Shown: positions 2,822-25,692 of the stretch, in pieces
How positions within the stretch are numbered: position 1 is the stretch's first letter
Layout: each line of letters starts with the position of its first letter
Assembly (NCBI GenBank): GCA_025060595.1
Contig: JANXBX010000002.1
Location: 78,300-142,299, forward strand
From: Synergistota bacterium
GTDB lineage: Bacteria > Synergistota > GBS-1
Reading direction: 5' to 3'
DNA length: 64,000 bases
Program-made: the position numbers and the translations under genes
The notes under the pieces: generated by a model
Database searches by the model: none
What the model saw: the letters and a program-made list of their open reading frames with translations, nothing else
Told to the model about the DNA's origin: nothing

Positions 2822-2835
2822 GGTATCCTCCCTTT

Positions 2836-3993: not shown

Positions 3994-3995
3994 CA

Positions 3996-4301: not shown

Positions 4302-4314
4302 CAACTCACCACCA

Positions 4315-6201: not shown

Positions 6202-6214
6202 TCTTATCACCCTC

Positions 6215-7210
6215 CTATCTTTTTCTTATTTCCCAAATTTGAGGATTAGCTATATTATCTGGCCTTTCACCTTTCAGTACCATAATAACATTCTTACAGA
6301 CCATTCTCGCCATGTTAGATAAGGTCTCCTCCGTATGAGCAGCCATGTGAGGAGTTGCAACCACATTTGGAAGCTTAAGCAAGGGCTCATCAGCTGAAGG
6401 AGGCTCAGGGTCATAAACGTCAAGACCGGCTCCAGCTATAACTCCATCTTTAAGCGCGTTATAAAGCGCCCTCTGATCGATTACTGAACCCCTTGCAGTA
6501 TTAATCAATATCGCGCTCTTCTTCATCAAGGATAATTCCCTTTCACCTATAAATTTTTCCGTTTCCTTAACGGCAGGTATATGTATGGTAACAAAATCCG
6601 AGGTCCTGAGCAAATAATCCAGATCTTGAGTGAGCTCTACATCTCTTAAGCCTTCCCTTTCAAGGATTTCCTCTGTTATATAAGGGTCATAACCGATGAC
6701 CTTCATGGAAAAACCATACCTGCATATTCTGGCTACCTTTCTACCTATGTTACCAAGGCCTATAACACCCAAGGTCTTTCCCAAAAGCTCTATACTTTTA
6801 ACCTGAAGCCTATAGCTATAGTTCCCATGATATCTAAATTCGACATTAGCATCCCATATGTGCTTAGCCACAGCTAACATCAGGGCAACTGTATGCTCCG
6901 CTACAGCGTTAGCGTTAGATCCAGGGGCATAAACCACAGGAATACGAAATTCATTGGCAGCATCCAGATCCACATTATCAACCAAAGCTCCATGCTTACC
7001 TATTACCAAACACCTTTTAGCAGCTTGAATAATCCTTCTAGATATATAAGGAGTAACTCTAACTATTATACCATCGTATTCCCCAACTACATTAAGAATG
7101 TGGTCTTCCTTTAAGCTTGAAGATACTTCGTAATCTATGCCAGATTCCTCAAGCATTTTAAGGCCATCAGGGTGAATCTCTTGCATAAGTAATAACTTTC
7201 TCTTTTCCAT
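6215..7210 (-). CDS. D-isomer-specific 2-hydroxyacid dehydrogenase (PGDH/SlcC-like)
   Basis: A 331-residue NAD-dependent dehydrogenase. The cofactor site is LGVIGLGNIGRKVARIC near residue 148; the catalytic Arg is in INTARGSVID, the Glu in DVYDPEPP, and the His in TPHMAAHT. ATG 7210 follows GGAGGG. The family includes 3-phosphoglycerate dehydrogenase and (S)-sulfolactate dehydrogenase SlcC. No serine-pathway gene is adjacent and no ACT domain is present, so a catabolic role with the Ldh2 enzyme is favoured: one oxidises one stereoisomer, the other reduces the 2-oxo acid back to the opposite isomer. That is inference from gene company. Confidence 0.88.
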   Translation of the reverse strand: MEKRKLLLMQEIHPDGLKMLEESGIDYEVSSSLKEDHILNVVGEYDGIIVRVTPYISRRIIQAAKRCLVIGKHGALVDNVDLDAANEFRIPVVYAPGSNANAVAEHTVALMLAVAKHIWDANVEFRYHGNYSYRLQVKSIELLGKTLGVIGLGNIGRKVARICRYGFSMKVIGYDPYITEEILEREGLRDVELTQDLDYLLRTSDFVTIHIPAVKETEKFIGERELSLMKKSAILINTARGSVIDQRALYNALKDGVIAGAGLDVYDPEPPSADEPLLKLPNVVATPHMAAHTEETLSNMARMVCKNVIMVLKGERPDNIANPQIWEIRKR

Positions 7211-7223
7211 AAAAAGCCCTCCT

Positions 7224-8087
7224 CTAAAGTAGCTTCTTTAATATATGGGGAACCTCATAAAGCTTGAAAGCTATCTTAACACCTGCCCCTTCGAGCTTTT
7301 CTATCTTGCTACGGAAGCTGCCTGATTCACCCTGGATTATCGCACCAGCATGCCCCATTCTCTTACCAGGAGGAGCCAACCTACCAGCAATGTATGCTAT
7401 AACAGGTTTACTCATCTTCCTTATAAATTCGCTTGCTTCCTCCTCGCGGGTCCCTCCTATTTCCCCCACTATAACAACAGCCTCGGTATCCTCATCCTTC
7501 TCGAAGAGCTCAAGTATCTCTGACATATCCATACCAGTGACAGGATCAGCTCCTATACCTACAACGGTGCTTTCACCAAAGCCAGCTTCATTCAAATAAC
7601 CAGAGACCTCATAAGATAGCGTTCCGCTCCTTGATATAACGCCAATTCTTCCGGGCTTAAACATATTACCAGGCATTATGCCAAGCTTACCCACACCAGG
7701 GGTTATAACCCCAGGAGTAGTAGGACCAAGCATGTAAGCTCCTCTATTTTTTGCCATCTCGCGCATCTCCATAGTGTCAGCCACAGGAATATGTTCAGGA
7801 ACGACAACTACAAGCTTTATTCCCGCATCTATAGCCTCAAAAACCGCATCTTTAGCCGCAAAAGGTGGGGCAAAGATCACAGAAGCATTAGCTCCAAAAA
7901 GCTCAACTGTCTCCTTAACATCATCAAAGACTGGAACCCCATAAACCACTTCCCCTTTTCTTCCAGGGGTTACACCAGCTACGATATTGGTACCGTACTC
8001 AACCATCCACCTCGTTTGGATGCTTCCAACCCTTCCAGTTATACCCTGAACTATAGCTTTAGTTTCACGAGTTAAAAGAATAGCCAA
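7224..8087 (-). CDS. sucD: Succinate-CoA ligase (ADP/GDP-forming) alpha subunit or close acyl-CoA synthetase homologue
   Basis: A 287-residue alpha subunit. It has the CoA-binding Rossmann domain (IVQGITGRVGSIQT), FAPPFAAKDA, and the ligase domain with the phosphohistidine in KRMGHAGAII. The GTG at 8096 lies inside the ribosome site GCGAGGTG; TTG 8087, six bases after it, gives the normal family start (LAILLTRETKAIVQG). Start is therefore moved. It follows sucC by one base and works with it to convert an acyl-CoA plus ADP and phosphate to the acid plus ATP. Placement straight after korDABC suggests it harvests the acyl-CoA made there. Confidence 0.93.
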   Translation of the reverse strand: MAILLTRETKAIVQGITGRVGSIQTRWMVEYGTNIVAGVTPGRKGEVVYGVPVFDDVKETVELFGANASVIFAPPFAAKDAVFEAIDAGIKLVVVVPEHIPVADTMEMREMAKNRGAYMLGPTTPGVITPGVGKLGIMPGNMFKPGRIGVISRSGTLSYEVSGYLNEAGFGESTVVGIGADPVTGMDMSEILELFEKDEDTEAVVIVGEIGGTREEEASEFIRKMSKPVIAYIAGRLAPPGKRMGHAGAIIQGESGSFRSKIEKLEGAGVKIAFKLYEVPHILKKLL

Positions 8088-8088
8088 A

Positions 8089-9240
8089 TTACTCACCTCG
8101 CTTCGTTAAAACCTCTTTCAAAAGATCAACCAACCTTTCCGTATGAAAGGTGTAGACAAGGTGAACGCCAGCACTCCTTAATATCTCCCAAGCTTCTTTC
8201 TCCTGATTTCCAATCGCCTTGACCACTATAGGAATATCCTTAGCGAAGCTCTCCTTCGCCTCTTTAATCCCATTTGCCGCCTCTATAAGAGAGTTAACCC
8301 CACCATAAAGGTTAATAAGGATAGCCTTTATGTTACCTCTTTTTAAAAGCAATCTTATGGAATCTCTAAGAAGCTTAGCGGTTATCCCTCCACCAGTTTC
8401 AAGAAAATTAGCAGGCCTTAATCCTTCATCGGCCATTAGGTCTACCGTACACATGCCCAAGCCAGCACCGCTTGATATGAGCCCGATATCACCATCAAGA
8501 CCTACATAGCTTACCCCTACTTCCTTAGCTTCCCTTTCCATCTCATCCTCAAAGCTAGATGTTTCAAACTCAAGAAAACGCTTCTGCCTAAATAAGGCGT
8601 TATCATCCACCTCAACCTTAGCATCAGCAGCAACTAACCTACCATCCCTTAAAAGGCACAAGGGATTAATCTCTAAGATTAATAAATCTGATTTAACGAA
8701 GGCCTCAAACATCGTATAAGCTAACTTAGAAAGCTTAACCAGAAGCTCTCCACTAAAACCTCTTTCCCTTAAATAGCTCCTTACCTCGTATTCTCTAAAA
8801 GGCTCACTTGGATATTTATCTATCCTTAAGAGCTTCTGAGGATAAAGCCTGACTATCTCCTCTATATCCATACCACCAGAATCACAAAACATAAAAACGC
8901 GCTTTCCCTTTTGAGGGTCTATGGTTACACCAATATACATCTCTCTTTCTATTTCAAGCGCTTCCTCAACCAAAAGTCTATTAACTTTAAAGCCTCTTAT
9001 ATCCCTTCCTAATAGCTCGGAAGCCACTTTTTTAGCCTCTTCCGGATCAGAAACAAGCCTTATTCCCCCAGCCTTTCCCCTTCCACCAGTGGGAATCTGA
9101 ACTTTAAGAACCGCTTTTTTCCCTATCTCCTTTACGGCATTTTGAGCCTCCTCTGGACTTTGAACAACCATCCCTTTAGGAACATCGATAATGCCCAATG
9201 AGCTTAAGAATTCCTTGCCCTGGTATTCAAGAAGCTTCAA
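8089..9240 (-). CDS. sucC: Succinate-CoA ligase beta subunit (ATP-grasp)
   Basis: A 383-residue beta subunit with the N-terminal ATP-grasp (MKLLEYQGKEFLSSLGI, KVQIPTGGRGKAGGI) and the C-terminal flavodoxin-like CoA-ligase domain (GAGLGMCTVDLM, NLYGGVNS). EINPL, the nucleotide-site motif, is present. Translation starts at TTG 9240 behind AGGAGGGGGG. Length matches the family. Forms the heterotetramer with sucD. Relatives use succinate, malate or other short acids, so strict succinate specificity is not proven; in this operon the natural acid may be a different one. Confidence 0.93.
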   Translation of the reverse strand: MKLLEYQGKEFLSSLGIIDVPKGMVVQSPEEAQNAVKEIGKKAVLKVQIPTGGRGKAGGIRLVSDPEEAKKVASELLGRDIRGFKVNRLLVEEALEIEREMYIGVTIDPQKGKRVFMFCDSGGMDIEEIVRLYPQKLLRIDKYPSEPFREYEVRSYLRERGFSGELLVKLSKLAYTMFEAFVKSDLLILEINPLCLLRDGRLVAADAKVEVDDNALFRQKRFLEFETSSFEDEMEREAKEVGVSYVGLDGDIGLISSGAGLGMCTVDLMADEGLRPANFLETGGGITAKLLRDSIRLLLKRGNIKAILINLYGGVNSLIEAANGIKEAKESFAKDIPIVVKAIGNQEKEAWEILRSAGVHLVYTFHTERLVDLLKEVLTKRGE

Positions 9241-12272: not shown

Positions 12273-13925
12273 TCAAATTTTTCTTACCGCTCCCTTAGAA
12301 GCGCTTTCCGCAAATCTTTCATAAAACCTCAAGTAACTGTTTTTATGAATAAAGCCACGCTCGATGGATAGAGTGAAATCGCTCATCCTTCTTCTATACT
12401 CCTCCTCAGATATCAAAAGATCCACCCTTTTATCCTTGATATCTATTCTTATAGGATCACCATCCTGGACTACAGCTATTGGACCGCGAGCGGCAGCCTC
12501 AGGCGAAACGTAAGCTACAGATATTCCATAAGATGCACCACTTAACCTTCCATCTGTTATCAAAGCCACATTCTTATATCTATTTATTATCTCAACACAG
12601 CGATGAAGCTCCCTCATACCTGGGCCCCCTCGAGGCCCCTCATAGCGAATAACTATTACCTCTCCCTCCTTAAGAGCATTCTTAGAAGCATACTCCATAA
12701 ATTCATCTTCGGAGTTAAAGACTCTAGCAACCCCCTCGAATCGCTCGACGAAGCTCTCCTTTAATGCAGAAACCTTAAGCAAAGCACCTTGAGGAGCTAA
12801 GTTTCCTTTAAGAATCTTTATAGATCCTCCCTTAGAAACTGGATCGCTTAAATTCCTTATTATGGATTTTATGGGCTTTAAACCCCTATATTCTTTCAGG
12901 ATATCTCTATAGCTTTTGCCAGAAACGGTTATCCTATCAAGGTGAAGAATGGAAGAAAGCTCTCTCATAACCGCAGAAACTCCACCAGAAAAGTAGAGGT
13001 CTATAACCGTATTCTCATCGCTGTTTGGAGTTATCTCAGCTATCAATGGAACCTTCTCGCTTATCCTCTCAAAGTCCTCCATACTGATATCTATACCAAG
13101 CTCATAGGCAATAGCAGGAATATGCAGAACCGCATTTAGAGAGCCGCCTAAGGCCATCAAAACTGCTATAGCATCCTCAAAGGCCTCTTTTGTTAATATC
13201 TCCGATGGCTTTGGTCCCTCCTTAGCTAAGCGAACCGCTACCTCCCCGGTTAACCTTGACAGTTGCGATCTCTCTGAACTCCCCGAGGGAGAAAGGGCAG
13301 AGCCAGGTAATCCCATACCTAAAACCTCAGCCACTATACACATCGTATTGGCCGTCCCAAGGAAAGGACAGATCCCAGGACAAGGATAGTACATTTGAGT
13401 AACATCAAGGAGATCATCAGAGGATATCTTACCTTCAAGGAAGGCTCTCCTTGCCCCTTTTGAGTCTTTGGGCTTAATTAAGTTATGCATCGGACCAGCT
13501 CCGAGCCATATCGATGGTATATCAAGTCTCCCCATAGCCATAAGCATGCCAGGGACTATCTTGTCACAGGAAGACAAAAATACAAGAGAATCAAATATAT
13601 CGTGCCCTTTAACCATGGCCTCCACTGAATCAGCTATCAGCTCCCTACTTGGAAGACTATAGTTCATCCCCTTATGCCCCTGAGCTATACCATCACATAT
13701 GGCTATGGTGTTAAACTCTATGGGAAGCCCACCAGCCTTATAAACCCCCTCCTTAACCCTTTGAGCTAAATCCCTTAACGGATAATGACCAGGAACAATC
13801 TCATTCCAGGAGTTAACTATCCCCACTATAGGCTTATCAAGATCATCACGAGAAAACCCGTTTGAAAGAAGATGCCCCTTTATCAGCTCTTTCACATAAC
13901 GCGGAAAACGATTCAATCTATTCAT
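12273..13925 (-). CDS. IlvD/Edd-family dehydratase (probable sugar-acid dehydratase)
   Basis: A 550-residue Fe-S dehydratase of the dihydroxy-acid/6-phosphogluconate family. Conserved motifs: GIVNSWNEIVPGH, CDGIAQGHKGMNYSLPSREL, SSCDKIVPGML and DGRLSGASYGISVAYVSPEAA. At the second cluster cysteine it reads GICPFLGTANTM, whereas true IlvD proteins have a Cys-Gly-Gly-Met-Tyr-Thr-Ala run there, so a sugar-acid dehydratase giving a 2-keto-3-deoxy acid is more likely than branched-chain synthesis. No other ilv gene is near. It is the last gene of the TctABC operon, next to a DapA-type aldolase that could cleave its product. Confidence 0.85.
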   Translation of the reverse strand: MNRLNRFPRYVKELIKGHLLSNGFSRDDLDKPIVGIVNSWNEIVPGHYPLRDLAQRVKEGVYKAGGLPIEFNTIAICDGIAQGHKGMNYSLPSRELIADSVEAMVKGHDIFDSLVFLSSCDKIVPGMLMAMGRLDIPSIWLGAGPMHNLIKPKDSKGARRAFLEGKISSDDLLDVTQMYYPCPGICPFLGTANTMCIVAEVLGMGLPGSALSPSGSSERSQLSRLTGEVAVRLAKEGPKPSEILTKEAFEDAIAVLMALGGSLNAVLHIPAIAYELGIDISMEDFERISEKVPLIAEITPNSDENTVIDLYFSGGVSAVMRELSSILHLDRITVSGKSYRDILKEYRGLKPIKSIIRNLSDPVSKGGSIKILKGNLAPQGALLKVSALKESFVERFEGVARVFNSEDEFMEYASKNALKEGEVIVIRYEGPRGGPGMRELHRCVEIINRYKNVALITDGRLSGASYGISVAYVSPEAAARGPIAVVQDGDPIRIDIKDKRVDLLISEEEYRRRMSDFTLSIERGFIHKNSYLRFYERFAESASKGAVRKI

Positions 13926-13944
13926 ATTATTAAAACCCCTTTCC

Positions 13945-14832
13945 TCAAATAAGCCCTAATTTCCTTAAAGCTTCCCTCATTTTCTCTTTAATCTCCTCAT
14001 TAGCTGGCCTAAATGGCTCCCTAGGATACATCTTGATACCTCTTAAGTTAACCATAGTGTAAGCCCCAACCGTAGTGGTATTAGCGAGCCTCATTAAATC
14101 CCTTACCGCTAAAACCCTATTGTGAATTTCTATAACCTTCTCCCTTGGAGACCCATTTATAACAGCATTATAAAGCTCTTTACAGAGCTCAGGAAAGGCA
14201 TTGCCTAAGCCCGGTATGAAGGCTCTAACGCCAAGGGAAGCAGCCGGTACAAATAACGCCTCGGTCCCTATTACTACATCGAAGCCCTCTTTATTCACTT
14301 TCCTCTTGTAGTCGGATAAAACCATGATATCGAAACTGCTATCCTTAACACCATATATTCCCTCTTCCGCTAACCTTTTAAGAAGGCTTACACTGACCCC
14401 ATAACCTACAGTCTTGGGATTGTTGTAGACATATACAGGAATACTCACCGCATCAAGCAATCTCTTAAAGTAGTAAAATACATCTTCCTCTGCATGGTGA
14501 TAATAGAAGGGAGGTACGGAAGATATGGCATCAGCCCCTATAGCCTCAGCATGCTTAGCGAGCTCAAGGGCATCCCTTGTGCTTATGCTTCCCACATGAA
14601 CTATAACAGGGACCTTCCCATTAACCTCTTCAACAACAACCTCTGCAACCCGCTTTCTTTCCTCTACTCTTAAAAGCGGTCCACACCCGTATGTTCCCAA
14701 TATGAAAAGCCCATCAACGCTTCTTAAAAGAAACCTTGTAAATTCCCTCAGGGCTCTCTCATCTATTTCGCCATGCTCATCAAAGGGAACTATCATGGGG
14801 GGTATAACTCCCTCAAGATACTTAAACCTCAT
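13945..14832 (-). CDS. DapA-superfamily pyruvate-dependent aldolase (probable 2-keto-3-deoxy acid aldolase)
   Basis: A 295-residue TIM-barrel class I aldolase. The Schiff-base lysine is in YGVKDSS and the catalytic tyrosine in VYVYNNP. The usual GTTGE substrate motif is replaced by GTYGCG, so true dihydrodipicolinate synthesis is unlikely. Other DapA features (MIVPFDEHGEIDE, VIVHVG, DAISSVPPFYY) are intact. It sits between an FGGY kinase and an IlvD/Edd dehydratase, matching cleavage of a 2-keto-3-deoxy sugar acid to pyruvate and an aldehyde, which the operon's iron alcohol dehydrogenase could reduce. That pathway is inferred. Confidence 0.85.
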   Translation of the reverse strand: MRFKYLEGVIPPMIVPFDEHGEIDERALREFTRFLLRSVDGLFILGTYGCGPLLRVEERKRVAEVVVEEVNGKVPVIVHVGSISTRDALELAKHAEAIGADAISSVPPFYYHHAEEDVFYYFKRLLDAVSIPVYVYNNPKTVGYGVSVSLLKRLAEEGIYGVKDSSFDIMVLSDYKRKVNKEGFDVVIGTEALFVPAASLGVRAFIPGLGNAFPELCKELYNAVINGSPREKVIEIHNRVLAVRDLMRLANTTTVGAYTMVNLRGIKMYPREPFRPANEEIKEKMREALRKLGLI

Positions 14833-14844
14833 TAAAACACCCCC

Positions 14845-16353
14845 TTACTGAAAGGTACAGATTTCATCGAACTCTTCCTGAAGCTTCCAATAGAGCCTCT
14901 TATATAATTCATATAATTTATTATATAAGTCGAACCAAGAGCTTTCTGGAACGATTTCATCAACGATCTCTAAAGCCTTGTTCAAGATTTCCGAGTAGCT
15001 ACTTATATAACCAACTCCTCTCATAGCCATTATCGCCGCACCGAAAGAGGAAGCCTCCTCTATATTCACTCTACTTATAGGCCTTCCTAATACGCTTGAA
15101 AGCACCTTAGCCCATAAACTGAACCTCATCAATCCACCTGTTCCCCTTATCTCCTTAGGAACCTCAGCTACTTCAGAAACAGCCTCATATATGCTCTTCA
15201 TCCTAAAGGCAACTCCTTCTATTATCGCCCTCGAAACGTGTCGCCTATCATGATGAAGAGCAAGCCCGAACAAAACGCCCCTTGCATTAGCGTTCCAGAA
15301 GGGGCATCTCTCACCGGTTAAGAAAGGTAAAAATAAAAGACCAGAGGATCCCGCTTCAACATCAGAAGCCCACCTTTCCATTTCCCTATAGGGATCCTCT
15401 TCCCCTTTCAGCTCCGGATAGAAATTATCTAAATACCAAGCCATAACAAGGCCAGCATTGTTTATAGCACATCCCACTATCCAGGTCTCATCATCTAGGA
15501 TATAACACCACGTTCTTCGCCTCTTATCTGTCAGAGGCTTATTCACAGCCATTCTAACAGCCCCGCTTGTCCCAAGCATAGCGGCCATAACTCCTCGAGC
15601 TATAGATCCAGAGCCAAGAGAGGATAAGGCACCATCCCCACCACCTATAACTATAGGAGTACCCTCCTTGAAGCCGGTTTGAAAGCTTGATTCACTGACC
15701 ATCTTGCCAATCACGGTTAAGGGTGAAACCGCAGGGCTAAGCTTATTCATGCTTATCTTAAGTTCATCAAATATGCTTTTCTCCCATGTCTTCTCTCGTA
15801 TATTAAGAAGACCGCTTCCTGAAGCTACGGATATATCAATAGCGTTAACCTTCGATAAGTTCCATAAAATATACTCTTTTATCATTACTATCTTGGAGGC
15901 CTTTTCTAAGAGGTCGGGAGCTTCATGCCTAAACCACACGAGTTTTGATAAGGGGTAATTAACATGAAGAGGACAACCTGTAAGATCATAAAGATGATCA
16001 AAAGCTTTAGCATACCTCTTAAGAAGCTCCGTTGACCTGTTATCACCCCAGATGATCAAGTTTGTAAGCTTCTTCATCTCTGAATCCACAAGCATTATGC
16101 TATGAAATATACTGCTTAAGCCGATAGCTTCAATCTCATAACCGCCTTTAAGCTGAGATAACGCTTCACTCATAGAAGTATAAACAGCGCTTACGATCTC
16201 ATCGGGATTCTGTTCCACCCAGCCGATCTTAGGCTGAATCATCCTATAGTTTCTCTTAGCGGTAGATAAAAGAACGCCATTGCCGTCAAAAATACAACAC
16301 CTTGCACCTGTAGTGCCTATGTCAACGCCAGCAAAGGCTATTTTTTTGTTCAA
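14845..16353 (-). CDS. FGGY-family carbohydrate kinase (xylulokinase/gluconokinase-like)
   Basis: About 502 residues, with the N-terminal ATPase phosphate loop FAGVDIGTTGARCCIF, the GGGDGALSSLGSGS second-domain motif, and GTGGLMRFSLWAKVLSSVLG near the C-terminus. The domain layout (two actin-like FGGY domains) is complete. TTG 16353, which overlaps the SDR stop as TTGA and begins LNKKIAFAGVD, is taken as start; TTG 16365 is an in-frame alternative directly against GGAGG. Substrate is a sugar or sugar acid, most likely the metabolite of this operon, but cannot be named. Confidence 0.84.
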   Translation of the reverse strand: MNKKIAFAGVDIGTTGARCCIFDGNGVLLSTAKRNYRMIQPKIGWVEQNPDEIVSAVYTSMSEALSQLKGGYEIEAIGLSSIFHSIMLVDSEMKKLTNLIIWGDNRSTELLKRYAKAFDHLYDLTGCPLHVNYPLSKLVWFRHEAPDLLEKASKIVMIKEYILWNLSKVNAIDISVASGSGLLNIREKTWEKSIFDELKISMNKLSPAVSPLTVIGKMVSESSFQTGFKEGTPIVIGGGDGALSSLGSGSIARGVMAAMLGTSGAVRMAVNKPLTDKRRRTWCYILDDETWIVGCAINNAGLVMAWYLDNFYPELKGEEDPYREMERWASDVEAGSSGLLFLPFLTGERCPFWNANARGVLFGLALHHDRRHVSRAIIEGVAFRMKSIYEAVSEVAEVPKEIRGTGGLMRFSLWAKVLSSVLGRPISRVNIEEASSFGAAIMAMRGVGYISSYSEILNKALEIVDEIVPESSWFDLYNKLYELYKRLYWKLQEEFDEICTFQ

Positions 16354-17108
16354 GCAGCGGTCCAACCTCCGTCAACGAATATTATTTGACCTGTTATATA
16401 ACGAGCCTCCTTAGAGGCAAGGAAAGCAGCAACCCCTTTTAGATCCTCCAGGACACCGAACCTACCCAAGGGGATCCTTTTAACCATATGCTCTAATCTC
16501 TCTTTATCTTTAAAGACGGCCTCTGTCATCTTCGTCTCATACCAGCCGGGTGCAATAGCATTCACCCTTATACCATAAGCCCCCCACTCTTTAGCAAGGG
16601 CTTTGGTAAGAGAGGCAACAGCCCCTTTTGAGGCAGCGTAGGCACATATATTAGGTACGGTTACTTCCGTAACCGTAAGCGAGCAGACGTTAATTATCGA
16701 TGGATTAGAGGATCTCCTTAGAAGATTAAAAGCCTCCTTACAAACGTAAAACACTCCAAAGAGATTAACCTCTATGATTTCCTTAAAATCCTCAACTGGA
16801 AACTCTTGAGCAGGGTATCTTTTATTTATGCCGGCCGCATTTACTACCACATCAAGCTTTCCATAGTGCTTTTCCACCCAGTTAATCATCCTCTTTACGC
16901 TCTCAAGGTTGGAAACGTCACATACATGGCTTACCGATTTAACCCTATATTTTTCCCAGATCTCAAGCGCTACCTTTTCAACCTCTTCCTGAGTTCTACT
17001 AACCAATACTATATCGCTTCCAGCCTCAGCTAAACCCTCAGCGAGCGCTCTACCTATACCTCTTGAGCCACCTGTAACAAGAGAGACCATCCCTTTAAGC
17101 TCGAACAT
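16350..17108 (-). CDS. Short-chain dehydrogenase/reductase (gluconate dehydrogenase-like)
   Basis: A 252-residue classical SDR. TGGSRGIGRALAEGL binds the dinucleotide, NAAGINKR marks the NNAG position, and the catalytic triad is Ser (NVCSLT), Tyr and Lys (YAASKGA). The C-terminus IFVDGGWTAA is typical. It overlaps tctA by 14 nt and the kinase by four, so it is firmly within the operon. Likely oxidises or reduces the imported polyhydroxy acid. NAD versus NADP preference is not certain. Confidence 0.9.
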   Translation of the reverse strand: MFELKGMVSLVTGGSRGIGRALAEGLAEAGSDIVLVSRTQEEVEKVALEIWEKYRVKSVSHVCDVSNLESVKRMINWVEKHYGKLDVVVNAAGINKRYPAQEFPVEDFKEIIEVNLFGVFYVCKEAFNLLRRSSNPSIINVCSLTVTEVTVPNICAYAASKGAVASLTKALAKEWGAYGIRVNAIAPGWYETKMTEAVFKDKERLEHMVKRIPLGRFGVLEDLKGVAAFLASKEARYITGQIIFVDGGWTAA

Positions 17109-18582
17109 GGGCTTTTTCTATCCTCCTTCTTCCAAGAATCATAAGTATTATTAAAACCCATAGTATTATACAAATAGGCCTTGTAAGGAATGGAATTATA
17201 CTCTCATTTAAGGTTAAGGCTCTCCTTAAGTTCTCATCAGCCATCCTACCTAAGATCAAACCTAAGGTAAACGGAGCAAGAGGATATCCATTATTTCTCA
17301 AAATATAACCAACAACGCCGAAAACTAATGTTACATAGACATCAAATATGGAATGGTTAACAGCATAAGCACCTATGACGCATAGAGTAACAACAATAGG
17401 CATCAACACATCCTTTTTAACAAGGAGTATCTTTATAAGCATGTTACTTATAAGAAGACCAAAGATAAGAAGCATAAAGTTAGCCATAACCTGCATGGCA
17501 ACATAGTCAAAGAAGAATTGAGGAGCTTCAATAAAGATGAGAGGTCCAGGCCTTATACCGTGAAGTAATATACCACCTAAAAGCACAGCCGCTGCACCGC
17601 TACCAGGTATCCCAAGGGCTATCATAGGAATGGAGGCCCCACCTATGCAAGCGTTATTAGCGGTCTCAGCAGCTATGACCCCCTCAAGACTGCCTTTTCC
17701 TATCTTCTCCCTTTCCATCCCTACATTCTTTGCAGTGCCATAACTAACCCAAGCAGCTACATCTTCACCTACCCCTGGAATTATCCCTATGATTATTCCA
17801 ATTATGGATGCCCTTATAGTCGTCTTCCAATATTTAAAAACGCCAAGTAAAGGAACTGTAACCCTAAGCTTTTTAGGATCAACCATAAGCTTTCCCTGAC
17901 CAGGCTCCCTCATAACACAGAAGACCTCGGTCAAGCCGAAAAGACCGATCAAAGCCGGAATTAGAGATATACCGCTTAACAGGTTCAAGCTACCAAAGGT
18001 AAAGCGAGGATAAGTGGTCATATTATCCATCCCTATCATAGCGGTCATAAGGCCTAAAAAGCCAGTGATCCATCCCTTAATCTGAAGCTCCCCCATGGTT
18101 AAGCTACCGCATATCATTACACCCATTATAGTTAAGACGAAGAACTCCCAAGATCCAAACTTAAGCGCTATCTTAGCAAGAAGAGGAGTAGCAACTGCCA
18201 GCGCTAAAACCCCGATAAGCCCTCCCCAGAAGGAGGCTAAACGAGCGTAACCCAAAGCCTCACCAGCCATTCCCTTCTTAGCAAGCTCATATCCATCTAT
18301 AGCGGTTGCTGCTGCAGATGGTGTCCCAGGGATGTTAAGTAAAACAGCGCTATTAGAACCGCCATATATACCACCACAATACAAGGCAACAAGCATTGGA
18401 ATGGCATATTTTGGAGCTAATCCATAAGTTATCCCGCTTAAAAGCGCTATACCCATGGTAGCTGTAAGACCAGGCAAAGCACCGATTATTATTCCAAGAA
18501 TAGATGAAATGGACATTAAAAACAGCAACTTTGGCTCAAACATGCTTATAAAACCATCAAAAAGCCTGACTAAGCTCTCCAA
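17095..18582 (-). CDS. tctA: Tripartite tricarboxylate transporter large permease TctA
   Basis: A 495-residue, roughly 12-helix membrane protein of the TctA family. Hallmarks: GIIIGALPGLTATMGIALL in the first helices and the repeat counterpart IIIGIIPGVGEDVAAWVSYG; GGIYGGSNSAVLLNIPGTPSA lies between. Start is TTG 18582 behind GGGGGGATGGGG. It couples import of a carboxylate caught by TctC to the proton or sodium gradient. Follows tctB closely and overlaps the SDR gene. Confidence 0.95.
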   Translation of the reverse strand: MESLVRLFDGFISMFEPKLLFLMSISSILGIIIGALPGLTATMGIALLSGITYGLAPKYAIPMLVALYCGGIYGGSNSAVLLNIPGTPSAAATAIDGYELAKKGMAGEALGYARLASFWGGLIGVLALAVATPLLAKIALKFGSWEFFVLTIMGVMICGSLTMGELQIKGWITGFLGLMTAMIGMDNMTTYPRFTFGSLNLLSGISLIPALIGLFGLTEVFCVMREPGQGKLMVDPKKLRVTVPLLGVFKYWKTTIRASIIGIIIGIIPGVGEDVAAWVSYGTAKNVGMEREKIGKGSLEGVIAAETANNACIGGASIPMIALGIPGSGAAAVLLGGILLHGIRPGPLIFIEAPQFFFDYVAMQVMANFMLLIFGLLISNMLIKILLVKKDVLMPIVVTLCVIGAYAVNHSIFDVYVTLVFGVVGYILRNNGYPLAPFTLGLILGRMADENLRRALTLNESIIPFLTRPICIILWVLIILMILGRRRIEKAHVRA

Positions 18583-18609
18583 AACCCCATCCCCCCTATC
18601 AACTAAGCA

Positions 18610-19080
18610 TTAGGGCAACCTCACCGCAAAGAGCTTTCCAAAGGAGTATGCTAATCCTAAGCTTACTAAAACCGCTATACCAACAGCCATATAAAGCTTC
18701 GTGCTTTTAAAATAAATATAGGAACCTATTAGATACAAAAAGGTAGCCAAAGTGTAAGGTATCTTGCCTAAAACTGCAACATAGGCAATTGTTAAAACTA
18801 TAAACATCAAAAGTCTCCTGGTTTTTATCTTCTCAAGATCCTTTTCAGATGTATATTCCTTTACTTGAAAAACACTTACCCTCACCCTTTTAATAAAAAG
18901 ATACAAAATAAGGCTTAAAGAAAGAAGCATAAGAACGGCAGATAAAAAGGCGGGAGTCAGTCCAGGGGAATCATGAGGGGTACCCTTTGGCATCTTCAAA
19001 GACTCGAGCAAGCCATAAAGTCCTATCAAGAAAACGGAAATACATATACCGATTTCCCAAAAGAATCTCCTCTTATCCAT
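18610..19080 (-). CDS. tctB: Tripartite tricarboxylate transporter small permease TctB
   Basis: A 156-residue membrane protein with four predicted helices, the poorly conserved small TctB subunit. Features seen: an N-terminal helix IGICISVFLIGLYGLLES, the typical PGLTPAFLSAVLMLLSL second helix, and two more C-terminal helices around a basic loop. ATG 19080. It sits between tctC and tctA in standard order. Identification depends on context as much as on sequence. Confidence 0.9.
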   Translation of the reverse strand: MDKRRFFWEIGICISVFLIGLYGLLESLKMPKGTPHDSPGLTPAFLSAVLMLLSLSLILYLFIKRVRVSVFQVKEYTSEKDLEKIKTRRLLMFIVLTIAYVAVLGKIPYTLATFLYLIGSYIYFKSTKLYMAVGIAVLVSLGLAYSFGKLFAVRLP

Positions 19081-19117
19081 CTTAAAAGGATCGCCTCCAT
19101 CATCTTAGTATGCTTTA

Positions 19118-19146
19118 AAAGGCAGGTGGCCTTAAAACCACCTGCC
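19118..19146 (-). terminator. Hairpin between tctC and tctB
   Basis: GGCAGGTGG (19121-19129) and CCACCTGCC (19138-19146) form a perfect 9-bp stem with an 8-base loop, followed on the minus strand by TTTTAAAG. It stands right after the binding-protein gene and should reduce permease expression relative to TctC or stabilise the tctC mRNA end. Confidence 0.75.
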
Positions 19147-19172
19147 GTCAATTACCCTTCTAGATAGAACTA

Positions 19173-20177
19173 TTACTCCGGCTTAGGAATCTTAAAGTCC
19201 TCAGGAGATCTTCTGGCAAGCTTAAGATCATGCAAAAGCCAACTAACTAAAGAGGTTTCCCTTGCTGCCCACTCTTCAGACTTCTTCCTGTCATAACCAA
19301 GATATATCATTGCCTGTTTCTGGATGAACTCCTTGAACTTCGGAGACTGAACAGCCTGAGCATAAGCCTTATCTATAGCATCAACAACCTCTTGTGGAAC
19401 ATCCCTCGGTACAGCTATGCCCCACCAACCACCGAAAGGCAGGTACTTCTTTATGTTAGGAGCCCATTTTGCCACTGTGGGAATCTTACCTACACCCTCT
19501 ATCTCGATATCCTCATCGTTAAAGTGTGCAAGTATCTTAAGTTGACCGCCTTTAATCAAGTCTACGGCTTCCATTAAGCCAGGTATACCAGCCTTCGTTT
19601 CCCCAGCTACAGCAGCTGCTGCCGCCGCACGACCGCTTGGATAAACCACTATCTTAAAGTCTCCTCCTACTTCCTTCTTAAGCATCTCCAAAGCTATATG
19701 CCAGCCATTAGCTATACCAGAGTTAGCAAGTGTTAAGTCCTTGCCTACCTCCTTCATCGCCTTTATAAAGTCATCCATCGTCTTTATAGGAGAGTCGGGC
19801 TTAACGCATATGGTAGCTACACCTGCGGCAGCGATCCACATATGAAAATCTTTATAAGAGAAGGGACCAAGATCCATAACTTGATACATCCTTATATTAT
19901 CAGAAAGACCAAGCCAGATATAACCATCATGAGGTTGACCCATAACATAAGCTGTAGCTACAGCACCGGTAGCGCCAGGCATGTTAATAACGTTAATGGG
20001 AACCTTCAATATCTGCTGCATCTCTGCTGCCAAGGCTCTGTTAACCTGATCGGTCGCTCCACCAGCGCCAAACTGCACGATCACTGTTATGGGCCTCGTT
20101 GGATATGCAGCAAGCGCTCCGCCCGCTAATCCAACAACAAGTAACCCCATCACCAACAAAACCAGAAACTTCTTCAT
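19173..20177 (-). CDS. tctC: Tripartite tricarboxylate transporter substrate-binding protein TctC (Bug family)
   Basis: A 334-residue secreted binding protein. The signal peptide is MKKFLVLLVMGLLVVGLAGG with cleavage around ALA-AY. The mature part starts with the Bug-family run YPTRPITVIVQFGAGGATDQ, then VINMPGATGAVATAYV and the family loop near HIALEMLKKE. ATG 20177 has GGAGGGAAGAAAG upstream. The bound ligand is probably a polyhydroxy or dicarboxylic acid, by analogy with the operon's enzymes. Confidence 0.94.
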   Translation of the reverse strand: MKKFLVLLVMGLLVVGLAGGALAAYPTRPITVIVQFGAGGATDQVNRALAAEMQQILKVPINVINMPGATGAVATAYVMGQPHDGYIWLGLSDNIRMYQVMDLGPFSYKDFHMWIAAAGVATICVKPDSPIKTMDDFIKAMKEVGKDLTLANSGIANGWHIALEMLKKEVGGDFKIVVYPSGRAAAAAAVAGETKAGIPGLMEAVDLIKGGQLKILAHFNDEDIEIEGVGKIPTVAKWAPNIKKYLPFGGWWGIAVPRDVPQEVVDAIDKAYAQAVQSPKFKEFIQKQAMIYLGYDRKKSEEWAARETSLVSWLLHDLKLARRSPEDFKIPKPE

Positions 20178-20254: not shown

Positions 20255-21409
20255 TCACATAGCGGCTTTACATATGCGGATAAGATCCTCAACCGTAGGT
20301 GTCCTTGGATTTATGGGGATACCAACGTTATTCATCGCCTCACGGCATATATCCTCAAGGGCCTCCTCTTTAATCCCAACCTCTTTCAGGCTCGAAGGTA
20401 TACCCACATCCCTACATAGCTCCTTAACCGCTTCCACCGCTTTCCTTGCAGCTTGGATCTCAGTAAGACCGCAAGTATTTTCACCAAGGGCCTCAGCTAT
20501 CTTAGCAAACTTGGAAACGTTACCTATTAGATTAAACTCCATACCATAAGGAAGAAGTATCGCATTTATAACTCCATGAGGAACATCGAAGTATCCTCCC
20601 ATGACCGCAGTTATAGCGTGAACCACACCAAGCTTGGTGTTCGCAAAGGCTAAAGCAGCCATGGTACTACCAAGAAGCATGTTATAGCGAGCCTCAAGGT
20701 TATCTCCCTTTGCATAAGCAGCCCTTAAATATTTTCCTATAAGATAAATAGCATGTAAAGCTATAGATTCCGATATAGGTTCAGTAATTACATTCGTATA
20801 AGACTCTATAGCATGGGTTAAGGCATCAAGACCGGTTGCCGCAGTAACGCTTGGAGGCATACTAACGGTCAAGAGGGGGTCACATATAGCTATAGAAGGG
20901 GCAAGCTTAGGATTTCCTATCCCCATCTTAACCTTTTTATTTGTGTCCTTTATAACCGTTACCCATGTTATCTCGCTTCCTGTTCCAGCGGTCGTTGGAA
21001 TAGCTATTAACGGAAGGATCTTATTCTTTGGGGGGTTCTTCCAGAAATAGCCTATCTCTCCTTCATTCGTAAGAAGAAGTCCGATAGCCTTAGCGGTATC
21101 TATTGAGCTTCCTCCACCAACTGCAACTAAAAGATCACAACCGAACCCTTTAGCTACCTTCACGCCCTCATCCACTATCTCAACTGTGGGGTTAGGCTCA
21201 ACCTTAGAAAAAACCTCGGTTTTGAAACCAGCAGCATCAAGCTTCCCTTTGATCTTCTCCACTATATTTGTGCGCAAGACACCAGTATCGGTAACTATAA
21301 GAACGTTTTTACCACCAAGCTCGTTTACCCTATCTACTATCTTCTCTGCCTCTCCAACTCCAAAGTATAGCTTCGTTGGAATCTGCCAAACAAAGGGCTT
21401 AACAAACAT
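20255..21409 (-). CDS. Iron-containing (group III) alcohol dehydrogenase
   Basis: About 384 residues. The NAD(P) site is VAVGGGSSIDTAKAIG; metal ligands lie in DALTHAIESY (Asp and His), in the GVVHAITAVMGGYFDVPHG stretch and its following HGVINA. ATG 21409 with AAGGAGGGGG upstream is used; the frame is open 17 codons further but passes through a hairpin. First gene of the TctABC operon. Reduces or oxidises a short aldehyde/alcohol; reduction of an aldehyde freed by the DapA-like aldolase would recycle NADH, an inference from the operon. Confidence 0.9.
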   Translation of the reverse strand: MFVKPFVWQIPTKLYFGVGEAEKIVDRVNELGGKNVLIVTDTGVLRTNIVEKIKGKLDAAGFKTEVFSKVEPNPTVEIVDEGVKVAKGFGCDLLVAVGGGSSIDTAKAIGLLLTNEGEIGYFWKNPPKNKILPLIAIPTTAGTGSEITWVTVIKDTNKKVKMGIGNPKLAPSIAICDPLLTVSMPPSVTAATGLDALTHAIESYTNVITEPISESIALHAIYLIGKYLRAAYAKGDNLEARYNMLLGSTMAALAFANTKLGVVHAITAVMGGYFDVPHGVINAILLPYGMEFNLIGNVSKFAKIAEALGENTCGLTEIQAARKAVEAVKELCRDVGIPSSLKEVGIKEEALEDICREAMNNVGIPINPRTPTVEDLIRICKAAM

Positions 21410-21427
21410 CTTACCCCCTCCTTTTCG

Positions 21428-21446
21428 AGAAAGGCAAAGCCTTTCT
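21428..21446 (-). promoter_or_regulatory. Leader hairpin just before the adh ribosome site
   Basis: AGAAAGGC (21428-21435) and GCCTTTCT (21439-21446) form a perfect 8-bp stem with an AAA loop. On the minus strand it ends about 5 nt before AAAGGAGGGGG, so it could limit ribosome access or protect the transcript 5' region. Confidence 0.5.
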
Positions 21447-21538
21447 ACTATCTTGAACATTGACTTACAAGGTAGAATAAAAATTAAAATCTGAGAGGAA
21501 AGACCAGCTTACCTTCTCGTATGAAAAAAAATTAGATT

Positions 21539-21571
21539 CTGAGCATACTTTCTAAGAATAGGTATGCTCAG
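21539..21571 (-). promoter_or_regulatory. 10-bp palindrome at the adh operon transcript start
   Basis: CTGAGCATAC (21539-21548) and GTATGCTCAG (21562-21571) are perfect inverted repeats separated by 13 bases. On the minus strand it lies just after the predicted transcript start and is followed six bases later by TTTTTTTT. It may be an operator or an attenuator stem. Confidence 0.55.
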
Positions 21572-21585
21572 TATTCCATTTTAAG

Positions 21586-21612
21586 ATTATCACAAACAGG
21601 AGATCCAGTCAA
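21586..21612 (-). promoter_or_regulatory. Candidate extended -10 promoter for the adh-tctCBA operon
   Basis: Minus-strand TTGACT (21612-21607), 15-base spacer, GATAAT (21591-21586) preceded by TGT, an extended -10 form. Predicted start is near 21578. The short spacer lowers certainty. Confidence 0.5.
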
Positions 21613-21688
21613 GGGAGCCCATGTCCAATTGCAAAGAGGCTCTAGAATCTTACCTAAACGATTCATCTAAAAACAATGCTACAAATTC

Positions 21689-21718
21689 TTGACAAAAAAA
21701 GCAAACAGTTTTTATAAT
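21689..21718 (+). promoter_or_regulatory. Sigma-70-type promoter of the DJ-1 gene
   Basis: Consensus TTGACA (21689-21694), 18-base spacer with an A-run, TATAAT (21713-21718). Expected start near 21725, giving a ~125-nt leader. The match to consensus suggests strong constitutive or repressor-controlled expression. Confidence 0.8.
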
Positions 21719-21849
21719 ATATATTTGGTTAGTCCACCATACCATATACAAACTATTATCGTATTTTAAATAATAAATTAAAAGGTGGCAGAACATCATA
21801 CCAGTTTCACTTAAGGGTGGCTTAATTCTCTCTTAAAGGAGGGAGGGAG

Positions 21850-23262
21850 ATGAGAGGGTTTAAGTTGGGAGTTTTAAGCGCGTTAGGGATCTTAATGCTG
21901 ACCCTCTCGAGCGTAATGGCAATGGACTTTAACTCCTTCCTCCAAGAGGCCTCAAAAACGGGAATTACCATCGAGAAGAAGGACGATGTGATTGCATGGA
22001 CCGGACCATACGGTGGAAAAATCAAACCCAATGGTCCACTAGCAGGGAAGAAAATCGGTATTGTAGTGGGATGCGACTTCAGCGACTGGCAGGCATATTA
22101 CTTAGCAGATTTCATAGGAGAGTTTGGGGGAACACCTCAGTTCATACTTGACAACAATCACTTATGGAAGGTTTCACGACACCTCTTTGGATCTGGAGCA
22201 CCTGTTGAACCAACCGGACGATGGGGTTTAACTTGCACTGCCGGTTTTGATGGGCTTGGCCTAAACGGAACAAGGCTTCTTCCACCTGTGCTCATGCAAC
22301 AGGGTAAAGGACATGTCGCAAATCTTCCCGTAGCTAATCCAGCGGATTACGATGCTATCATCATCCTAGGCGGATGGGCAGGAGACATAATGTATGCTGA
22401 TGATGTGGCTATAAAGTTCATAAAGGCAGTCGTTGACCGTGGCGTTCCTGTAGCAGCCATAGGCGAAGGGATATTACCCTTAATCAAGCTTGGAACGGTT
22501 AAAGGTAAAAAGGTCACCGGCAATAAGGTAGTTAGCTACATGCTTCAGAAGATAGCTGAATTTAAAGACGAGCCAGTTGTAGTCGATGGAAAACTCATTA
22601 CCGCCAGAGATACCATAGATACACCAGCACTTTTAAGAGCGCTTTGCAAAGTCTTCGACCCCAATTTCAAGGATATACACAAAGATATTCTCAAGGGCAA
22701 AAAGGTTATGATCATGGTTGCAGATGATTTCGAGGACATAGAGCTTTGCGCTCCCGTATTAGAACTCATGTACAGGGGTGCAGAGATAATAGTTGGTCTC
22801 TTTGAGCCTTATATTAAGTCAAGGCCTCCTTTGGTTGGTCTTGATGTAAGGATGGGAAACTTCGGAGTAAGCGTTCCCTTCCAAGAGATTCCAGAGAACT
22901 ACTATAAAATCGTTAAAGCTGAAAACTTAAAGATGAGCGATTTTGACCTCATTTTGATCCCTGGAGCGATGAACCCACTTCATATCGCTGCCCTACATTC
23001 CAAGTTTCTAAAAGATGCACATGATGCTGGGAAAATCATCGCCGCTATTTGCCATGGTCCAATTCCCGTTGCCGCAGCGGATTTAGTAAAGGATAAAAAG
23101 CTCGCTGGGTGGCTTGCCTGCGAACACTCCATAGAGATAATGGGTGGCAAATTCATCCCCGATTGGGCGGCAGCCATTCACGGACGCATCGTTAGCGGAA
23201 GGACACCCCCAGAGGTTCCAGAATTCGTAGATGCTTGTACTGCAGCTCTCTTAAGGAAATAA
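21850..23262 (+). CDS. Secreted tandem DJ-1/PfpI-domain protein
   Basis: A 470-residue protein with a Sec signal peptide (basic MRGFK, hydrophobic LGVLSALGILMLTLSSV, cleavage near VMA-MD) and two class I glutamine-amidotransferase-like DJ-1/PfpI domains. The second (about residues 280-470) has the nucleophile elbow AAICHGPIPVAAADLV with Cys and His. The first (about 60-250) has AAIGEGILPLIKLG at the same place, so its Cys is lost; it is probably structural. Known PfpI/DJ-1 proteins act as proteases, glyoxalases or deglycases, mostly in the cytoplasm and as single domains. GGAGGGAGGGAG precedes ATG 21850. Monocistronic; substrate unknown. Confidence 0.85.
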   Translation: MRGFKLGVLSALGILMLTLSSVMAMDFNSFLQEASKTGITIEKKDDVIAWTGPYGGKIKPNGPLAGKKIGIVVGCDFSDWQAYYLADFIGEFGGTPQFILDNNHLWKVSRHLFGSGAPVEPTGRWGLTCTAGFDGLGLNGTRLLPPVLMQQGKGHVANLPVANPADYDAIIILGGWAGDIMYADDVAIKFIKAVVDRGVPVAAIGEGILPLIKLGTVKGKKVTGNKVVSYMLQKIAEFKDEPVVVDGKLITARDTIDTPALLRALCKVFDPNFKDIHKDILKGKKVMIMVADDFEDIELCAPVLELMYRGAEIIVGLFEPYIKSRPPLVGLDVRMGNFGVSVPFQEIPENYYKIVKAENLKMSDFDLILIPGAMNPLHIAALHSKFLKDAHDAGKIIAAICHGPIPVAAADLVKDKKLAGWLACEHSIEIMGGKFIPDWAAAIHGRIVSGRTPPEVPEFVDACTAALLRK

Positions 23263-23270
23263 TTTAAACT

Positions 23271-23296
23271 AAGGGGAGCGCTTAAGCGCTCCCCTT
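23271..23296. terminator. Perfect 26-bp palindrome between convergent genes
   Basis: The 13-base half AAGGGGAGCGCTT is repeated inverted with no loop between, and the palindrome overlaps the last codons and stop of the symporter gene. It should act as a bidirectional terminator or RNA-end stabiliser for the convergent DJ-1 and symporter transcripts. T-runs on either side are weak. Confidence 0.65.
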
Positions 23297-24523
23297 CCTC
23301 ATCCAGTCCTTACCCTCAAGTATTCTTGCAACCATCATGGCGGCAACCGTATCCCCAGTGGCATTAACCATCGTCGCTGGAGGATCAACAAGATATCCTA
23401 TAGTAGCTATTATAGGGAAAGCCTCGGGAGGAAAGCCATACATGCTAACTATAAGCATTTCACCAATAAGACCTCCGCCTGGAACCCCGGACATTACAAC
23501 ACCGCTTAAGACGGCTATGGCAAAAGCGGTTAAGTAAGTTCCAATTCCCTCGAAGGGCATACCAAATATACCAAATAGGAAGGAGATCTTTAAGATCGCA
23601 CTTATACAAGAACCATCCATGTGAGCTGTAGCGCCAACGGGTAAGACTATCTCCCTTATATCCTTAGGTATACCAAGCCTGTAAGCAGCATTAAGGTTAA
23701 CAGGTAAAGTGGCCAAACTGCTTTGCGTAGCTAAAGCGGTTATGGCAGGTTCAAATATGACTTTAAAGAACTTCCTAGCTCCCTCTCCACCAGCCGCAAG
23801 GTAAGCATAAATAGCAAAGGCTATGAAGAAGTAGGCTATGGAAAGAGGATAGTAAATAAGCATCGCTCTTCCATAAGCGCCTATAAGCTGGGGGCCAAAC
23901 TCTCCAACAAGAGAGGCGAAGTAAGCACCAAGACCTATAGGAGCATAGTACATTATTACCGAGATCATCTTAAGCATCGCATCTGAAAGCAGGTTAAGGA
24001 GCTTAACAAGGGGCTCGCCTTTTTCCCCAAGAAGGCTTATGCTTAATCCCAGAATTATTGAGAAGATTATAAGGGGCATCATATTCCTTCGAGAAAGAAG
24101 ATCACGAAAGTCGGAAACGGTAAAGGCTTTAACCACCTGTTCGGCTGTGCTCAAGGGTTTTAACTCCTCAGGCTTGGGAAGCTCAAGCTTTACTCCCTGA
24201 GCCGGTGGGAAAGCTACAACCACAAAGGTAGTGATCGCAGCAGCAATCACTCCTGTTATAACGAATATAGCTATCATCGTACCTATGATCTTCCCAAGCC
24301 TTCTAAGGTTAGCGATACTTGCAACTGCACTCGTGACAGTTATAAGAACCAATGGGACGACAATAGTGAACATTAAGTTAAGAAATATATCTCCTAAAGG
24401 GGTTAAAACGGTAGCCTTCTTCCCCAAAGCTAGGCCAAGCAAGCTACCTATAATGATCGAAGAAAGAAGGATAAGGGAAAACCTATAAGAACGCCACAAA
24501 CCTCCCTTCTCTTTTTCAGCCAT
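23282..24523 (-). CDS. Dicarboxylate/amino acid:cation symporter (DAACS, GltP/SstT type)
   Basis: A 413-residue membrane protein with about eight helices and two re-entrant hairpins. The hairpin-1 motif appears as TQSSLATLP (family SSSAATLP), and the NMDGT ion-binding motif appears as HMDGSC. PGGGLIGEMLI covers hairpin 2. The Asn-to-His and Thr-to-Ser changes in the NMDGT motif suggest an altered ligand or ion. ATG 24523 behind GGAGGGAAGG. Last gene of the TAXI-TRAP operon; may import an amino acid or dicarboxylate handled by the preceding enzymes. Confidence 0.9.
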   Translation of the reverse strand: MAEKEKGGLWRSYRFSLILLSSIIIGSLLGLALGKKATVLTPLGDIFLNLMFTIVVPLVLITVTSAVASIANLRRLGKIIGTMIAIFVITGVIAAAITTFVVVAFPPAQGVKLELPKPEELKPLSTAEQVVKAFTVSDFRDLLSRRNMMPLIIFSIILGLSISLLGEKGEPLVKLLNLLSDAMLKMISVIMYYAPIGLGAYFASLVGEFGPQLIGAYGRAMLIYYPLSIAYFFIAFAIYAYLAAGGEGARKFFKVIFEPAITALATQSSLATLPVNLNAAYRLGIPKDIREIVLPVGATAHMDGSCISAILKISFLFGIFGMPFEGIGTYLTAFAIAVLSGVVMSGVPGGGLIGEMLIVSMYGFPPEAFPIIATIGYLVDPPATMVNATGDTVAAMMVARILEGKDWMRKGSA

Positions 24524-24546: not shown

Positions 24547-25692
24547 TTACTTTTCAATGGTATCATAAGCGTATTTAATTCTCAATAGTATCTCTTTAAG
24601 TGTATCTTTATCGCAAGAGAAGTTAAGTCTAACGCAATTAGGGTCACCAAAATCTCCACCGTTATTCATATAGACTCTTGCTTTCTCTAAGAAAAACTCT
24701 TGAGGGTTCTTAAGGCCTAGCTTGCTACAGTCAAGCCACATCAAGAAGGTAGCCTCAGGTAAGGTAGGATCTATCAATGGGCAGTTTTCCCTTAAGAAGC
24801 TATAGGCCATATCCCTATTAGATTTAAGCGCTCTTAAGAGCTCTTCAAGCCAGGGTTCGCCATGAAGATAAGCGGTCTTAAGCGCTAAAATACCAAAAAC
24901 ATTCCCAGTAGTTAATTCGAGAGCCTCAAAGGACTCTATGTACCTCTGCCTTAAACCCTCATCAGGTATTATCCCGTAAGAAATGGTTAAAGCGGGAATA
25001 TTAAACGTTTTGCCCGGGGAATGTAAGACTATGGTATTCTTTAATCCCGCTTTAAGCATAGTGGTAAACCTATTAGGATCGTATACTATATCTCCATGGA
25101 TCTCATCGCTTATAATTATTAAGTTATGCTCAAGCGCAATATCGTAAAGAGCCTTAAGCTCATCTAAAGTCCACGCTCTACCAACCGGATTATGAGGATT
25201 ACAAAGAATTAATAGCTTAGTACGTTCATCTATTAGCTTTCTAAGGCTATCTAAGTCCATTCTAAAGGCTCCATTGACCTTAACCAAGCGGTTTTCAACC
25301 AAAACCCGCTTATTCTTTTGAACCACGCCAAAGAAGGGCGGATAAACTGGGGTCTGAATTATTACCTTGTCGCCAGGATCAGTTAAGACGTTAATTAACA
25401 TCGCCATCATGGGCATGACTCCAACGCCATCAACTATCCACTCACGCTTAACTTCAAAGCCATATCTCCTTCTATACCAACTAATTATAGCCTCGTAGAA
25501 CTCCTCAGAGCGAAAGGTGTAACCAAAGGCGCCATGCTCAACCCTCTTAAGAAGGGCTTCGATAATAGCTGGAGCGGTAGCCAAATCCATGTCCGCTATC
25601 CATGCAGGTAATACATCCTCACCGTAATTCTTTTGAATAAGGTCATACTTCTTACAATCCCAGCCTCTTCTGTCAACGAAGCGTAAGCTCAT
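24547..25692 (-). CDS. PatB/MalY-type PLP enzyme (cystathionine beta-lyase or aminotransferase)
   Basis: A 381-residue fold-type I PLP enzyme. Typical PatB marks: the opening DRRGWDCKKYD with PAWIADMDLATAPAI, GVMPMMAMLINVLTDPGDKV, QTPVYPPFF, NPHNPVGRAWT and SDEIHGDIVY. The PLP lysine is in HSPGKTFNIP (family SPSKTFNI). The C-terminal R anchoring the carboxylate is in NCVRLNFSC. Relatives cleave C-S bonds of cystathionine, cysteine conjugates or related amino acids, or transaminate. Lies between a PPC-domain gene and the symporter. Confidence 0.88.
   Translation of the reverse strand: MSLRFVDRRGWDCKKYDLIQKNYGEDVLPAWIADMDLATAPAIIEALLKRVEHGAFGYTFRSEEFYEAIISWYRRRYGFEVKREWIVDGVGVMPMMAMLINVLTDPGDKVIIQTPVYPPFFGVVQKNKRVLVENRLVKVNGAFRMDLDSLRKLIDERTKLLILCNPHNPVGRAWTLDELKALYDIALEHNLIIISDEIHGDIVYDPNRFTTMLKAGLKNTIVLHSPGKTFNIPALTISYGIIPDEGLRQRYIESFEALELTTGNVFGILALKTAYLHGEPWLEELLRALKSNRDMAYSFLRENCPLIDPTLPEATFLMWLDCSKLGLKNPQEFFLEKARVYMNNGGDFGDPNCVRLNFSCDKDTLKEILLRIKYAYDTIEK

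Follow-up and report, generated by a model that had tools for sequence, protein, structure and literature searches.

A putatively exported bacterial tandem DJ-1/PfpI protein with catalytic residues divided between its domains

Prokaryotic DJ-1/PfpI proteins are stated to be single-domain, and the tandem layout is treated as a plant feature, in the published literature (PMC8170915, PMC3160306). The 64,000-nucleotide stretch of DNA analysed here (the window) encodes a 470-aa protein (21850..23262, + strand, start codon ATG) with two DJ-1/PfpI domains behind an N-terminus that resembles a signal peptide, and the first domain has no nucleophile. What does such a protein do, and is its first domain a dead half? 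In the open-access literature, no account turned up of a bacterial tandem DJ-1 protein that is exported or TRAP-linked, an absence that is weak evidence, or of one with partitioned catalytic residues.

Domain architecture and the divided active site

The Pfam model PF01965 fits each half of the protein separately (79.4 and 75.7 bits, cut-off 26.6), which bears out the tandem architecture proposed in the initial annotation. On the whole protein it scores 150.1 bits in two stretches and places the protein in the DJ-1/PfpI superfamily. Both halves also match the NCBIfam family TIGR01382 (DJ-1/PfpI/YhbO deglycase/protease), yet the score of 125.9 bits is below the family cut-off of 139.05. From Pfam and the AF2 model, the first domain (D1) spans residues 67-270 (22048..22659, +), with an insert at about residues 103-160, and the second (D2) spans residues 283-470 (22696..23259, +). 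The two are approximately 25% identical over 102 residues (E = 8e-8). An N-terminal extension, residues 25-66 (21922..22047, +), contains KTGITIE followed by GPYGGKIKPNGPL and is conserved in both tandem clades described below (alignment A2).

The AF2 model used is a single-chain prediction from a 41-sequence alignment, with a mean pLDDT of 88.1 and a pTM of 0.91; an earlier model from a 5-sequence alignment (pLDDT 54) was discarded as poor. Its low-confidence stretches (model residues 82-103 and 110-114; protein numbering is +24) lie chiefly within the D1 insert. Both domains are clearly predicted as PfpI folds. The top Foldseek match is the Arabidopsis tandem glyoxalase III DJ-1d, full length (E 4e-24, TMq 0.57-0.59, rmsd 7-8.6), followed by single PfpI domains (TMt 0.8-0.88), and the closest solved structures are the tandem DJ-1d and the single-domain PfpI/YhbO proteins. 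Because the superposition on DJ-1d is this poor between domains, either the interdomain arrangement differs or the prediction is imprecise.

DJ-1d (4ofw, 4ogg, 3uk7) is the best whole-length match in sequence as well as in fold, at approximately 21-22% identity. Both of its domains retain Cys, His and the acid, and it is not sent to a periplasm, whereas D1 of the window protein has no Glu, Cys or His, and the full catalytic set is not found in both domains. In DJ-1d, the two cysteines reportedly come together at the interface between the molecules of a trimer (PMC5412262). Arabidopsis DJ1C and the plant cluster-B DJ-1 proteins are also tandem, and the catalytic Cys is missing from one domain (cluster B) or both (DJ1C). 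These belong to another, eukaryotic DJ-1 branch, DJ1C is plastid-targeted, and the available portions of the sources report no retained trans acid (PMC8170915, PMC3160306).

The mechanism of P. aeruginosa PfpI (PaPfpI) uses four residues: C112, H113, E22, and D86 from the adjacent protomer (PMC11987610). The same trans acid has been described for PH1704 and YhbO (PMC4156298, PMC1782040, PMC5691139), and PaPfpI and YhbO are methylglyoxalases (PMC11987610). In D1 of the window protein, the catalytic Glu position (E12 of PH1704, E22 of PaPfpI) is occupied by S78 (22081..22083, +). The Cys-His position of active enzymes is occupied by G205-E206 (22462..22467, +) in the elbow motif AIGEG, which reads GEG, GGG or GDG across the family. 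D179 (22384..22386, +) keeps the acid at the position of E74 in PH1704 and D86 in PaPfpI, an acid that normally comes from the adjacent protomer (PMC11987610, PMC5691139). D2 has the catalytic Glu, E295 (22732..22734, +), and the nucleophile elbow C401-H402 (23050..23055, +) in the motif AICHG, and at its lost acid position stands L377 (22978..22980, +).

An alignment of nine tandems repeats this division. D1 has Ser for Glu, lacks Cys and His, and keeps the Asp in 9/9; D2 keeps Glu, Cys and His and has Leu or Trp instead of the acid in 9/9. The nine rows share kinship and are not nine independent events, and the pattern holds in both clades. Single-domain relatives from two phyla have Cys, His, and Asp or Glu at the trans position in 34/34 and the catalytic Glu in 23/34. 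MAFFT put every single-domain protein on D2, so D1 was modelled from the tandem rows alone. The trans-acid position is a prediction from sequence alignment.

The window protein is like the YhbO/PfpI single-domain proteins (E. coli YhbO; P. aeruginosa PfpI, 8r3n; P. horikoshii PH1704, 1g2i) in its fold, its ICHG elbow, its catalytic Glu and an acid at the trans position, and glyoxalase-III chemistry is probably common to both. D2 holds the adjacent Cys-His and the catalytic Glu in one domain, and D1 has none of them. Whereas the single-domain proteins form dimers of identical protomers with two identical composite sites, the window protein has two fused and diverged domains, partitioned residues, a putative signal peptide and the D1 insert. 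This partition would be expected if selection acted on one composite site per polypeptide only, and the alignment implies such a single putative site. Because D1 keeps the trans Asp while D2 has lost its own copy, the halves appear interdependent. The earlier reading of GEG without a nucleophile in D1 and CHG in D2 is correct. Its corollary, that the first half became a dimer-like scaffold, survives for the dimer-like arrangement, but D1 is not merely a dead scaffold, as it retains D179 whereas D2 has lost the acid. A bacterial tandem family with divided residues is a natural test of the need for a neighbouring-protomer acid in PfpI-type catalysis; a single D1 residue can be changed while the catalytic domain stays untouched.

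Export signal, flanking signals and distribution

Residues 1-24 (21850..21921, +) are a predicted Sec-type signal peptide, judged from hydropathy and the cleavage motif. The N-terminus, MRGFKLGVLSALGILMLTLSSVMA followed by MD, combines a basic n-region and a hydrophobic core with an A-x-A-like end; cleavage is predicted between VMA and MD. Signal-like N-termini are found in the window protein and five further homologues (6/6 exported-clade members read). They are absent from a sister clade, present in four genomes, which has the same architecture and begins near residue 26 of the window protein. N-terminal 12-aa hydropathy maxima are 2.5-3.3 in the exported clade versus 0.6-1.2 in the sister clade. 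The two clades are approximately 48% identical to each other, and identity in the window's clade is 65-80%. With the n-, h- and c-features retained across one clade and missing from the other, the Sec signal claimed at the outset is probable, and we infer that the protein is exported. It had also been called extracellular. The support goes as far as crossing of the inner membrane, and a periplasmic location appears likelier. The signal-less clade indicates that the tandem architecture does not depend on export and could originally have served a different function. The signal-less tandems (L040-L043, in genomes G202, G204, G201 and G200, respectively) mostly adjoin, by eye, a DUF523-like gene, not TRAP genes.

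The ribosome-binding site AGGAGG (21837..21842, +), recognised from sequence, lies 7 nt 5' of the ATG. Upstream, TTGACA-18 nt-TATAAT (21689..21718, +) matches the sigma-70 consensus at 12/12 positions. The strong promoter claimed earlier is thus present as a consensus match only, though promoter-like sites in the region are as frequent as expected by chance. An 11-pair terminator-like hairpin (23271..23296, -), with its T-run on the minus strand, lies between the tandem gene and the convergent DctA-family gene; such hairpins are no more numerous than in shuffles. An Rfam search of 21400-23500 gave zero matches, and so no known riboswitch is found there.

Full-length tandems were found in 3/188 genomes from the window's phylum and in approximately 8/50 from a second phylum, one of whose records bears the title Candidatus Atribacteria; one second-phylum tandem, in G189, is clipped by a contig end. 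Within these two phyla, a survey for signal-peptide DJ-1 tandems of the kind suggested in the initial annotation gives one clade with the signal and one without. A scan of genome contigs returned only two close relatives because its patterns were strict. Viral-contig scans found no relative, and a plasmid search gave partial matches only, none reaching 80% query coverage. In the tree, the window protein clusters with second-phylum members (100/99), apart from the two other members of its own phylum, which makes horizontal transfer of the tandem gene likely. D1 and D2 each form one fully supported group. Joined by three single-domain proteins from the window's own family, they make up a supported set (95/97). 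A single origin of the tandem would account for this grouping; the program issued a long-branch warning. A reading as two equal, recently duplicated domains is rejected, since the D1 and D2 groups are separate, fully supported and on long stems. Many second-phylum genomes also have PfpI proteins of approximately 325 aa (L088-L104), in which a long C-terminal extension comes after the only DJ-1 domain.

Linked importers and sugar-acid genes

One particular TRAP importer accompanies the exported clade. At locus L001, the tandem gene, DctP, DctQ, DctM, an FGGY kinase, a LarA-type racemase and an SDR lie on one strand. The TRAP genes come after the tandem gene in G176 and G177 (L036, L037), and G212 (L039) has, within 10 kb, a divergent TRAP-FGGY-SDR cluster, two LarA-like genes and a GntR regulator. 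The DctP proteins of tandem-linked loci are 66-71% mutually identical, and the window's other DctPs are approximately 30% identical to them. DctP orthologues at 69% identity or above are found in 5/238 genomes (G176, G177, G188, G201 and G212), each beside a tandem gene or a remnant, and LarA, FGGY and SDR genes are present in most of these loci. The signal-less clade has no TRAP linkage, so the architecture may have begun with a role other than periplasmic feeding.

The remnant is in G201 (L044:10037-10388, -), where a frameshifted exported-tandem gene immediately precedes dctP in an operon that in other respects resembles that of L001; this genome also carries an intact signal-less tandem copy (L042). 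In G177, a transposase-like gene (L037:11783-13036, -) sits between the tandem gene and dctP and is absent from the close relative G176.

The window genome has no orthologous TRAP importer (best DctP 47%). Its tandem gene is transcribed alone, divergent from an iron-containing alcohol dehydrogenase gene (20255..21460, -) and a TTT-type importer (17095..20177, -). The importer, recognised from sequence, consists of TctA (17095-18582), TctB (18610-19080) and the binding protein TctC (19173-20177); NCBIfam gave no match for TctA or TctC. Next to it are sugar-acid genes (12273..17108, -) for an IlvD/Edd-type dehydratase, a DapA/KDG-aldolase-like protein, a gluconokinase-like FGGY kinase and an SDR like gluconate 5-dehydrogenase. 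A DctA-family symporter gene (23282-24523) is convergent with the tandem gene, and a MalY-like aminotransferase gene (24547-25692) lies near it. The common theme of the loci is hydroxy-/sugar-acid uptake and use.

A second acid-utilisation cluster in the window (664-9240, -) encodes a TRAP binding protein, a malate/lactate-dehydrogenase-like protein, an AOR-like oxidoreductase, a split altronate/galactarate-dehydratase-like pair, a D-2-hydroxyacid dehydrogenase and succinyl-CoA-synthetase-like proteins. The 1.86-Mb window genome (G000) has five LarA-type (nickel-pincer) racemase homologues above the Pfam cut-off, one of them approximately 1.3 kb before the window start.

Proposed function and rival explanations

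That related genes adjoin a sugar-acid importer suggests an enzyme outside the inner membrane that makes importable acids from reactive aldehydes. Our preferred reading, to which we give slightly less than an even chance, is an exported YhbO/PfpI-type fused 'heterodimer' with one composite site and glyoxalase-III-type chemistry that feeds hydroxy-/sugar-acid uptake. It builds on three observations: how the domains are laid out, residue losses that complement each other in both clades, and the TRAP linkage. D2 would give Glu295, Cys401 and His402, and D1 would give Asp179 in place of the acid from an adjacent protomer, in a site formed within one chain or between the chains of an oligomer; the D1 insert may cap the pocket. 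The Cys would attack the aldehyde, the His and Asp would stabilise, and the Glu would mediate proton transfer. Alpha-oxoaldehydes, possibly sugar-derived, would be converted to 2-hydroxy acids outside the inner membrane. The associated TRAP or TTT importer would bring these acids into the cell for use by the LarA racemase, the FGGY kinase and the dehydrogenases.

Glyoxalase-type activity is plausible. Glyoxalase III turns methylglyoxal or glyoxal into lactate or glycolate. This chemistry is the likeliest here, since proven methylglyoxalases have the same residue set and since the products would be 2-hydroxy acids, the substrates of LarA-type racemases (PMC11770544). The alpha-oxoaldehyde substrate is suggested by the neighbour genes only. 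The product-to-importer link is guilt by association, and the differing importers, TRAP elsewhere versus TTT in the window, count against feeding, as do the absence of the orthologous TRAP from the window genome and the solitary, divergent transcription of the window's tandem gene. If the link is functional, glyoxalase-III chemistry outside the inner membrane would be nutrient gathering, not detoxification alone. We regard as possible, but hold with less confidence, a history in which fusion and then complementary loss gave an obligate single composite site, and one branch gained a signal and feeds TRAP/TTT acid uptake from toxic alpha-oxoaldehydes.

The same composite site could serve other chemistry in the periplasm, with a metabolite or peptide as the target of a deglycase, peptidase/amidase or hydrolase. 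Peptidase activity has been ascribed to single-domain PfpI proteins such as PH1704, Cys-His-acid resembles a cysteine-protease triad, and the DctA-family symporter and MalY-like aminotransferase genes are of an amino-acid type. We consider such chemistry unlikely: PaPfpI, initially annotated as a protease, turned out to be a methylglyoxalase (PMC11987610), and the genes conserved around the tandem gene in related loci concern hydroxy-/sugar acids rather than peptides. It is improbable that the protein is instead a non-catalytic periplasmic accessory of the importer that acts in binding, as a chaperone or as a redox sensor, with the Cys used to bind or sense. Several DJ-1 proteins are chaperones or stress proteins (PMC5691139), and the tandem gene adjoins a solute-binding-protein gene. 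However, catalysis fits better than simple binding with a Glu/Cys/His set and a trans Asp that are invariant in two clades so far apart in sequence.

Human DJ-1 works with a Cys-His dyad and no trans acid (PMC5691139), and D2 alone could do the same, with D1 as a structural scaffold only and Asp179 kept for folding. We find this distinctly improbable, since every member has lost the acid from D2 and kept it in D1, and independent drift is unlikely to yield such exact complementarity. Lack of export, with the N-terminus as an uncleaved anchor or the true start internal, would accord with a sister clade that has no signal and begins near residue 26. The spacing of AGGAGG for the ATG at 21850 and the signal-like N-termini of all six exported-clade members read make it highly improbable.

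Elsewhere in the window, a short ORF (38086-38463, -) resembles the end of an esterase/alpha-beta hydrolase and is probably a gene fragment.
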